From NCBI RefSeq assembly GCF_003008515.1, contig NZ_CP027668.1:2410001-2474000 (forward strand): DNA of 64,000 bases, read 5' to 3'. The notes under the pieces were generated by a model. The model did no database searches. It worked only from the letters and a program-made list of their open reading frames with translations, and was not told the DNA's origin. Below are positions 56,846 to 59,396 of this stretch, piece by piece. This stretch comes from Phreatobacter cathodiphilus (GTDB taxonomy: Bacteria > Pseudomonadota > Alphaproteobacteria > Rhizobiales > Phreatobacteraceae). Within the stretch, counting starts at the first letter, position 1. The number at the start of each line of letters is the position of its first letter. A program made the position numbers and the translations under genes.

Positions 56846-57258
56846 TGTCCCACCAGATCGCCGTCGTCACCCGCTTCTACAAGGAGATGTGGGACCACGC
56901 GGACAAGAGCCTCATCCCCGGCATCTTCCACAAGGACTTCACCTTCCGGGGATCGCTGGGGCCGGTGCTGGTGGGGCACGAGCAGTTCGCCGGCTATGTC
57001 GACTTCGTCACCGGCGCGCTCGGCAGCTACACCAGCGACATTCTCGACCTGGTCGAGCAGGGCGACAAGGTCGCCGGGCGCCTGCGCTTCCACGGCTATC
57101 ACCGCCAGGAGATGTTCGGCTTCGCGCCGACCGGCAAGCATGTCGCCTGGGCCGGCGCCCCCTTCTTCACCTTCGAGGGCGACAAGGTGCGCGACCTCTG
57201 GGTACTCGGCGACGTCCACGGGCTCATTGAGCAGTTGAAAGCGAACGCATCGGGGTAG
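56845..57258 (+). CDS. NTF2-like / SnoaL-type ester cyclase-like protein
   Basis: A 137-residue single-domain protein with the cone-shaped NTF2 fold. The pattern VTRFYKEMWDHADKSLIPGIFHKDFTFRG near the N-terminus and the central GHEQFAGYVDFVTGALGSYTSDI are usual for SnoaL-like/ester cyclase family proteins. Many of these bind small hydrophobic molecules, some are isomerases or hydrolases; no reaction is assignable. The ATG overlaps the pepF stop codon by four bases, indicating coupling. Confidence 0.78.
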   Translation: MSHQIAVVTRFYKEMWDHADKSLIPGIFHKDFTFRGSLGPVLVGHEQFAGYVDFVTGALGSYTSDILDLVEQGDKVAGRLRFHGYHRQEMFGFAPTGKHVAWAGAPFFTFEGDKVRDLWVLGDVHGLIEQLKANASG

Positions 57259-57288
57259 TGGAGGCCGGGTGACCCGGCTGCCTTTCCC

Positions 57289-57311
57289 GTGTTATACATT
57301 CTGTACAACAC
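57289..57311. promoter_or_regulatory. operator palindrome of the toxin-antitoxin operon
   Basis: GTGTTATACA (57289-57298), TTC, TGTACAACAC (57302-57311): 10-base arms that match at nine positions. The palindrome overlaps TATACA, a plausible -10 element, and ends 11 bases before the antitoxin ATG. Antitoxins of the AbrB/MazE type bind such sites to autoregulate. Confidence 0.75.
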
Positions 57312-57322
57312 GGGAGGATGCC

Positions 57323-57583
57323 ATGAACGAACAGCCGCGGAAGGTGGAGCAGGAAGGCTTCGTCCTGCAGGTTCGCAAGATCGGCAATTCCATCGGCGTG
57401 ATCCTGCCGAAGGAATTGCTTGCGCGTACCAACCTGCAGGAGGGGGATAAGCTGCACGTGATCGAGCAGACGGAGCGGACGATCAAACTGTCGCCCTATG
57501 ATCCCAAGCACGTGAAGGCCATGGGCATCGCCCGGAAGGCTTTCCGGGACTATGCCGACACCTTCAAGGCGCTCGCCAAATGA
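57323..57583 (+). CDS. AbrB/MazE-type antitoxin
   Basis: An 86-residue antitoxin with a swapped-hairpin AbrB DNA-binding fold: FVLQVRKIGNSIGVILPKELLARTNLQEGDKL near residue 14. The C-terminal half, with KAMGIARKAFRDYADTFKALAK, would wrap the toxin. It should bind the palindrome just upstream and neutralise the Doc-like toxin. GGGAGGATGCC precedes the ATG. It overlaps the toxin gene by four bases (ATGA), so the two are translationally coupled. Confidence 0.88.
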   Translation: MNEQPRKVEQEGFVLQVRKIGNSIGVILPKELLARTNLQEGDKLHVIEQTERTIKLSPYDPKHVKAMGIARKAFRDYADTFKALAK

Positions 57584-57960
57584 ACGAGCCGGTCTGGCTG
57601 GACGTCGACATCATCGATGTTCACGCCGAGCAACTGGCGCTGTTCGGTGGGCCGGAAGGTATTCGCGACCTCGGCATGCTCGAATCGGCGCTCGGCCGTC
57701 CGGTCAACAAGTTCGGCTACGGGGAGGAGGATTTCGCGGCGCTCGCAGCGGCCTACGCCTTCGGCATCGCCCGCAATCCCCCGTTCGTTGACGGGAACAA
57801 GAGGGCGGCCTTCGCGGCAATCATCGTGTTTCTCGGCCTCAACGACATCGCCTTCGCCCCGCCTCCGGCAGAGGCGACCGCCATCATCCTAGCCCTCGCC
57901 GCCGGCGAGGTCGGTGAGGACGGCCTGACGCGCTGGATCCGCGACAACTGGCCGACCTGA
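57580..57960 (+). CDS. Doc/Fic-type toxin with substituted motif histidine
   Basis: A 126-residue protein of the death-on-curing (Doc) branch of the Fic family, full length for Doc. The motif normally reads HPFVDGNKR; here residues 66-75 are NPPFVDGNKR, with Pro67 in place of the catalytic His. The change is one base (CAC to CCC, codon at 57778). Phe69, Asp71, Gly72, Asn73 and Arg75 are kept. Doc phosphorylates EF-Tu; the histidine is essential in known members, so toxicity is doubtful. The paired antitoxin lies just upstream. Confidence 0.88.
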   Translation: MNEPVWLDVDIIDVHAEQLALFGGPEGIRDLGMLESALGRPVNKFGYGEEDFAALAAAYAFGIARNPPFVDGNKRAAFAAIIVFLGLNDIAFAPPPAEATAIILALAAGEVGEDGLTRWIRDNWPT

Positions 57961-58031
57961 CCGGCCGCCCCCTCGAAACCCGGCACCTGCCGCACTATCT
58001 CAGGCTCTCCACCTCTTCCCCGGGAGCCCGC

Positions 58032-59396
58032 ATGCCGCCGCGCGACGATGAAGCCAATCGCCTGACCGGTCGCCTGTCGCGCTACGCCCGTGTCGGCACC
58101 AACGTGGCGGGCGCCGCCGCCTCCATCGCCGCCGCCCGGTTCTTCGGCGCCGGCCTCGACCGCGAGAAGAACGCCGCCGACCTCACCCGCGCGCTTGGGG
58201 GCCTCAAGGGGCCGATCATGAAGGTCGCCCAGCTCCTCGCCACCATTCCCGAGGTGCTGCCGCCCGAATATGCCGAGGAGTTGCAGAAGCTGCAGTCGGA
58301 AGCCCCGCCCATGGGGCCCGCCTTCGTCAAGCGCCGCATGATGGCCGAGCTCGGCCCCGACTGGGAGAAGCGCTTCGCCGCCTTCGACAAGATGCCCGCC
58401 GCCGCCGCCTCCCTCGGCCAGGTCCACCGCGCCACCGCCCATGACGGCATGGCGCTCGCCTGCAAGCTCCAGTACCCCGACATGCAGTCGGCCGTGGAGG
58501 CCGACCTCGCCCAGCTCGAAGTGCTCTTCGCCATCCACCGCCGCATGGACCCGGCGGTGGACACCCGCGAGATCGTCAAGGAGATCGGCGCCCGCGTCCG
58601 CGAGGAGCTCGATTACCGCCGCGAGGCCAAGCACGCGGCGCTCTACCGGGAGGTTCTCGCCGACGAGCCGCTGGTGCGTGTGCCGGACGTGCGCGACGAG
58701 CTCTCCACCGGCCGGCTCCTCACCCTCTCCTGGCTCGACGGCACCAAGATGCTGTCCCATGTCGACCGGCCGCTGGACATCCGCAACCGGCTGGCCACCG
58801 CCATGTTCCGCGCCTGGTGGCATCCCTTCACCGCCATCGGCGTCATCCACGGCGACCCGCACCTCGGCAATTACACTGTCTTCGATCAGGACGGCGAACC
58901 CGGCGGCATCAACCTTCTCGACTACGGCTGCGTGCGCATCTTCCCGCCGCGCTTCATCGGTGCCGTCATCGACCTCTACAAGGGACTCGAGGAGAACGAC
59001 GAGGCCCGCGTCGTCCACGCCTACGAGACCTGGGGGTTCAAGAACCTGAGCCGCGACCTCGTCGACATCCTCAACATGTGGGCCCGCTTCATCTACGGGC
59101 CGCTGCTCGACGACCGCGTGCGCTCCATCGCCGACGGCGTCGCGCCGGGCCAGTACGGTCGCCGCGAGGCCTTCACCGTCCACAAGGCGCTGAAGGAGAA
59201 GGGGCCCGTCACCATCCCGCAGGAATTCGTGCTGATGGACCGCGCCGCCATCGGTCTCGGCGGCGTCTTCCTGCATCTCAAGGCCGAGCTGAACTTCTAC
59301 CGGATGTTCAACGAGGAGATCGACCGGTTCAGCCTGGAGGCCGTCACCGCCCGCCAGCAGGCCGCCCTCGGCTCCGCCGGCCTTCTCGCCGCCTGA
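58032..59396 (+). CDS. AarF/ABC1/UbiB family kinase
   Basis: A 454-residue atypical kinase. The KxGQ-like motif is [25 protein letters not shown], the Ala-rich loop is [12 protein letters not shown], the nucleotide lysine is in [10 protein letters not shown], the catalytic loop is [14 protein letters not shown] and the metal motif is NLLDYGCVR. Members support ubiquinone synthesis as UbiB or act on lipids. The KxGQ motif has K-V-A-Q rather than K-x-G-Q, a variation seen in this alphaproteobacterial subgroup. The ATG at 58032 is used. It is followed by DUF4031, ispH, thrB and rnhA at short spacing. Confidence 0.88.

Follow-up and report, generated by a model that had tools for sequence, protein, structure and literature searches.

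The doc-type operon in the 64,000-nucleotide stretch of Phreatobacter cathodiphilus DNA analyzed here (the window) raises the question of what becomes of a toxin-antitoxin module when the catalytic histidine of its toxin is replaced by a proline. The toxin gene, which opens with ATG and closes with TGA, is matched by Pfam Fic PF02661 (48.5 bits against a cut-off of 24) and by the NCBIfam death-on-curing family TIGR01550 DOC_P1 (49 bits, or 48.4 in the genome search, against 38.65). Its motif reads N66-P67-P68-F69-V70-D71-G72-N73-K74-R75 and departs from the full motif HxFx[D/E][G/A]NKR in carrying proline at the site of the catalytic histidine. A sequence-only reading of this DNA had proposed a His-to-Pro change by one base, CAC to CCC, with the other motif residues and the full length retained, and both points hold: the codon is CCC, a single A-to-C difference from the CAC of the sister species, and F69, D71, G72, N73, K74, and R75 are all kept in a 126-aa product. 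A phmmer alignment pairs P67 with His66 of P1 Doc (3k33) and with the tyrosine of the 3dd7 mutant chain. Protein and family searches of the window's own genome (both at E ≤ 0.001) found no Doc besides this one, and redundancy through an intact second copy was rejected on that ground. A compensating histidine elsewhere in the toxin was likewise rejected, since the only other one, H15, is invariant across the 21-protein alignment. PADLOC gave weak PDC-S23 matches only (18 to 19 bits).

Table 1. Features of the doc-type operon, with positions counted from the first letter of the window
Feature	Position	Strand	Basis or remark
Inverted repeat resembling an operator, TCCCGTGTTATACA-TTC-TGTACAACACGGGA, ahead of the antitoxin gene	57285..57315	.	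Repeat search; putative operator
Antitoxin, 86 aa, MazE/AbrB-type (PF04014; TIGR02609 "doc_partner")	57323..57583	+	Profile matches
Doc-family (Fic-fold) toxin, catalytic His replaced by Pro	57580..57960	+	126 aa; profile matches, alignment, model
Codon 67, CCC (Pro) replacing CAC/CAT (His) of the Fic/Doc motif	57778..57780	+	

That the motif histidine is essential in Fic and Doc enzymes, as stated in the sequence-only reading, agrees with the relevant passages of PMC2686095 and PMC5651007, in which it is needed for activity. According to the former, VopS requires its motif histidine for AMPylation. The latter describes Campylobacter Fic2, whose wild type is toxic despite a degenerate motif that keeps the histidine and whose toxicity is abolished by a His-to-Ala exchange, and Fic3, whose filamentation is reversed by the same exchange. 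A literature search joining death-on-curing, catalytic histidine, and proline found no paper, and proline is not mentioned in PMC4454073. The passages found on Phreatobacter and toxin-antitoxin systems concern another genus and HicAB only, and those of an S. pneumoniae phd-doc paper hold no mention of histidine.

The Fic/Doc fold of the toxin seems to be kept. An AlphaFold model based on a 21-sequence alignment has a pLDDT of 88.7 (mean of 78 for residues 61 to 70) and a pTM of 0.86. Its best PDB matches are Phd-Doc (3k33), DocH66Y (3dd7), and Doc F68S (3kh2), with TM scores of 0.80 to 0.83, the five matches obtained in the PDB at E ≤ 0.001 all being Doc chains. Retention of the fold is suggested by these matches of a predicted structure, in which the effect of one substitution is not visible.

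The remainder of the operon is in good order. Directly upstream of the toxin, the antitoxin gene scores 65.8 bits against TIGR02609 (cut-off of 55.9), and its TGA overlaps the toxin ATG as ATGA. The inverted repeat in front of it is near-perfect, with 14-nt arms separated by a 3-nt gap and 13 of 14 positions paired (93% complementary). In agreement with the earlier claim that antitoxin and operator are intact, the antitoxin shares 83 of its 86 residues with that of the sister species (3 differences), and the 13/14-pair repeat, a putative operator, is kept there as well. A pattern built from the repeat matched once in the window and in none of 100 shuffles. At up to two mismatches, its core has a single site in the window's own genome. 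G003, G007, and G008 each contain one as well (with two mismatches), upstream of their doc operons; none was found in the other 8 of the 11 further same-genus genomes, among them G004, G005, and G011, in which a full doc homologue is present. We infer that the repeat acts as the operator of the module. The antitoxin itself has a single match in the genome, and a role for it as a wider regulator was rejected, as no further operator-like site occurs in that genome at up to two mismatches. A scan of positions 57200 to 58080 for promoters and terminators gave no matches.

Comparison within the genus indicates on which branch the histidine was lost. A Doc match is present in 9 of 12 genomes, the window genome included. 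All same-genus homologues with a full motif (L002 to L007 and L010) have His, as does the weak match L008; L009 and L011 span the C terminus alone, where the motif cannot be read. The sister-species orthologue, with 94% protein identity and CAC as its motif codon, lies in a locus of the same gene order that is 91% identical in DNA over 3.7 kb. The codons beside codon 67 likewise differ between the window and the sister (AAT/AAC and CCG/CCC). His in the sister and in the other readable same-genus homologues makes Pro67 a state derived on the window's own branch. Whether Pro67 is fixed in relatives, a check proposed along with the sequence-only reading, can thus be answered: it is not, the sister and the readable genus homologues having His and Pro being rare and scattered elsewhere.

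The two genes have nevertheless changed little in protein sequence since the split from the sister. For doc, dS is 0.477 and dN is 0.025 (ratio of 0.052); dN/dS is 0.081 for the antitoxin over 86 codons and 0.060 for the upstream neighbor, a SnoaL gene. The ABC1 gene was left out because the sister frame stops 36 codons after the matching ATG. Near the start of this ABC1-kinase gene, the sister contig (L012:1636-1672) has a 23-base gap relative to window positions 58113 to 58172 that breaks the frame and is either real or a MAG assembly error. With L017 as the outgroup, synonymous and nonsynonymous changes in doc number 12 and 3 on the window branch and 11 and 3 on the sister branch, with 10 and 1 assignable to neither; with L059, the counts are 11 and 3, 13 and 1, and 9 and 3, respectively, all of them omitting a one-residue indel near the toxin N terminus. 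The nonsynonymous changes on the window branch (outgroup L017) are H67P and the conservative I14V and E114D. Free drift over the whole window branch would be expected to leave about 36 nonsynonymous changes (12/93.5 × 284.5). Besides H67P there are 2, or up to about 5 if the unassigned ones are included, so drift fills at most about one-fifth to one-third of the branch. Either His was lost recently or constraint on the protein persists. The strength of purifying selection appears equal on the window and sister branches, as a recent change would lead one to expect; retention of a Pro protein in a noncatalytic role would fit as well.

Relaxed constraint after His loss was also sought in other trios and rejected as a general trend, there being no consistent pattern. 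The synonymous:nonsynonymous counts of the His-less branch versus its His sister are 6:4 versus 1.5:6.5 or 22:3 versus 17:1 for L028, 26.5:18.5 versus 21:14 for L015, and 30:21 versus 30:10 for L019; for the Arg rows, they are 9:5 versus 21:5 (L049) and 10:5 versus 11:8 (L052). L019 and L049 lean toward relaxation.

Proline at this position recurs well beyond the genus. A homologue scan seeded with the window motif yielded 29 relatives, 19 with Pro, 9 with His, and 1 spanning the C terminus only, a set enriched for Pro since NPPFVDGN was among the seeds. The record titles of the Pro set name Alpha-, Beta-, and Gammaproteobacteria, Planctomycetota, Armatimonadota, and Actinomycetota. The 19 Pro codons are CCC (10) or CCT (9), each one base from CAC or CAT, and never CCG or CCA, which is what repeated single-base changes from His codons would give. 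At the next proline of the motif, all four codons (CCC, CCG, CCT, and CCA) are in use within this set, and it therefore seems unlikely that the seed kept CCG and CCA out. A gene similar to the window antitoxin lies upstream of 13 of the 19 Pro homologues, and an open frame of at least 60 codons precedes the other 6. In Xanthomonas, where one Pro gene belongs to X. cissicola, His is present in all of the 27 other loci whose motif could be read (the 30 loci taken comprise these 27, 2 without a pattern match, and the Pro gene itself; 7 weaker matches lie outside the count). An Ectothiorhodospiraceae MAG (L031:698-1356) carries tandem Doc-like stretches, the first with His and the second reading NPPFVDGN and then a stop; this second stretch is a decayed copy that has Pro as well.

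A tree was built from 87 of 94 readable rows; L021, whose Doc is identical to L004 of G008, and six rows outside 110 to 175 aa were dropped, the Pro row L032 among the latter, which leaves 18 of the 19 Pro homologues plus the window. On this tree, flagged by the program for its few columns and long branches, Pro requires 11 changes, 7 of them forced by well-supported branches, and the two Arg rows (L049 and L052) require 2, from separate origins. The window Doc pairs with its His sister (100/94) inside a seven-row clade made up of six His rows and itself. The Pro label is clustered, with 11 changes against a mean of 17.4 after shuffling (as low in 0 of 500 shuffles), and there are five well-supported Pro-only pairs (L023/L024, L025/L027, L026/L036, L029/L030, and L033/L034). 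Since Pro rows were sought and nearby His rows mostly were not, the clustering may stem from sampling. Some Pro lineages may nonetheless have lasted, which counts against a purely tip-wise reading. A conserved "NPPF" subfamily, as the share of 19 Pro in 29 might suggest, was rejected: the scan was seeded with NPPFVDGN, and pattern surveys, codons, and tree all speak against one origin. To judge from these comparisons, Pro67 is one of many separate losses rather than the mark of one fixed subfamily, though some Pro rows cluster.

A less biased view of the position comes from surveys with a DNA motif pattern that allows any codon in place of the histidine; they find only genes in which the remaining motif is intact, and the places counted are DNA motifs, confirmed as Doc genes only at translated loci. 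Within the order (397 genomes), 107 places comprise 101 His, 4 Arg, and 2 Pro, the window included. The phylum sample (398 genomes) has 50 places, 18 of them already counted and the 32 new ones all His. For the class (385 genomes), 59 places include 10 already counted and 49 new (46 His, 2 Gln, and 1 Tyr). The class of the Pro-bearing G752 (321 genomes) has 33 places, which without G752 are 31 His and 1 Gln. Pooled without the window and G752, 219 places hold 210 His, 4 Arg, 3 Gln, 1 Tyr, and 1 Pro. Nine of 219 places thus lack His, or 6 of 216 with the Gln type set aside, which gives a rough idea of how often Doc-type motifs that are intact elsewhere lose their catalytic site. Conservation of the histidine at 210 of these 219 places, all in other genomes, exceeds chance, and a backward-pattern control matched once (G1282, in the class of G752), so chance matches are few. 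Among viral contigs, searched with a pattern that also required Pro after the His position, 71 of 73 places have His, 2 have Gln, and none has Pro. A plasmid search returned 217 records with a relative, one of which has at least 60% identity.

In the pattern surveys, where numbers are small, Pro does not occur more often than Arg. On the sequences compared, Doc-type genes have lost this residue separately several times, to Pro, Arg, and Tyr. With the rest of the motif intact, Arg (CGT or CGC) occupies the position in G295, G323, G108, and G199, and Tyr (TAC) does so in G934. At G255:C1:6102370-6102398, the motif is NPAFVDGNKR with CCA as the Pro codon, two steps from a His codon and possibly an older loss. 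Gln motifs (NQPF, NQLF, and NQSF) occur in the viral contigs L076 and L120 and in G839, G955, and G1238, and perhaps belong to a published His-to-Gln clade of Doc proteins.

P1 Doc phosphorylates EF-Tu. In the reading that we favor, and hold to be probable, the toxin of a chromosomal doc operon was recently inactivated by the A-to-C change His67Pro, with fold, antitoxin contact, and repression kept, and the module is in early decay. One base change would have swapped the catalytic base His67 (His66 of P1 Doc) for proline, probably recently. Without it, a Fic-fold enzyme would lack the means to activate its target's hydroxyl (that of EF-Tu in the case of P1 Doc), leaving the toxin dead or nearly so; an inactive toxin is the likeliest reading of the gene as it stands. 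The fold and the antitoxin contact would persist, and Doc would remain able to complete the complex that represses its own operon, while the module would cease to addict the cell and would stand at an early stage of decay. Antitoxin binding and autoregulation are probably kept. Rather than the gained binding role suggested by the sequence-only reading, antitoxin binding and corepression would be ancestral traits of Doc that were kept. The passages concerned report that nontoxic Doc H66Y still binds Phd (PMC2686095), that Phd-Doc is a good repressor and Phd alone represses only weakly (PMC3920265), and that chromosomal toxin-antitoxin systems are known to decay, as are toxin mutants without activity (PMC7167474).

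It seems unlikely to us that the His-less Doc is instead a pseudo-toxin under selection, kept as an antitoxin-binding corepressor or for anti-addiction against plasmid or phage Doc toxins. Such a role would suit the strength of constraint seen in toxin and antitoxin genes alike, the preservation of antitoxin and palindrome, the antitoxin-like genes upstream of most other Pro homologues (13 of 19), and the five Pro-only pairs of the tree. His-less Docs can also persist, as the passages on the His-to-Gln clade D2, with its 45 sequences, indicate (Khater and Mohanty 2015, PMC4454073). A recent change explains the constraint equally well, however, and Pro is absent even from the sister species; the lack of CCG and CCA among the 19 Pro codons gives no sign of a long-kept Pro, and the unbiased counts show it no commoner than Arg. 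A sequencing or assembly error at one base of a C-rich stretch (AATCCCCCG) is very improbable. Read otherwise, the base would be a single A surrounded by C's, and the substitution is confined, within the genus, to the window genome, but this genome is a single contig scored as 100% complete, the frame is intact, the adjoining codons also differ from those of the sister, and several records not titled MAG have the same substitution, some via CCT. Very improbable too is a toxin still toxic because Pro67 is tolerated via another residue, substrate-assisted chemistry, or a changed target or reaction: Asp71, Asn73, Lys74, and Arg75 are all kept, the clade D2 authors hold in the passage concerned that the His-to-Gln proteins may not be dead (PMC4454073), and Fic2 (PMC5651007) and IbpA, which by that account retains residual activity after His-to-Ala exchange (PMC4454073), indicate that activity can survive a motif change and so count against a dead toxin, but the invariant H15 is no new substitute and Doc H66Y is described as nontoxic in the passage on it (PMC2686095).

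With recent inactivation as the preferred reading, the window case is mostly ordinary in kind, related genes showing such loss repeatedly. Unlikely is the wider idea that one-base His loss is a recurrent, perhaps selected, disarming of chromosomal Doc modules, whose toxin fold, antitoxin, and operator would be kept for regulation or anti-addiction, while phage and viral-contig copies keep the catalytic site (71 of 73, the other 2 being Gln). The window Doc and its His-bearing sister orthologue at the same place form a matched pair on which to ask if a toxin, once disarmed, remains of use to its operon.

Among known systems, P1 Doc and its H66Y variant (3k33 and 3dd7) are the closest in design: they share with the window protein the Fic fold, the Doc-type motif, a length of 126 aa, and the second place in a two-gene operon. 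The P1 module differs in its antitoxin, which is Phd rather than MazE/AbrB-type, and the toxins are 26 to 27% identical. The window Doc is substituted at the same residue as Doc H66Y, of which it is a natural counterpart, although the laboratory change is His to Tyr and the natural one His to Pro. With clade D2, whose members are usually single-domain, it shares being a natural Doc without the catalytic histidine; unlike that clade, which has Gln (Qx[FY]x[DE][GV]NKR), the window Pro sits at a tip inside a His clade, on a tree built without D2 rows. The operon also resembles decaying chromosomal toxin-antitoxin modules such as ccdO157 of E. coli (PMC7167474) in being a chromosomal addiction module whose toxin has probably lost its function, but where the review passage describes deletion and nonsense mutations, in the window toxin one missense mutation has replaced the catalytic residue.
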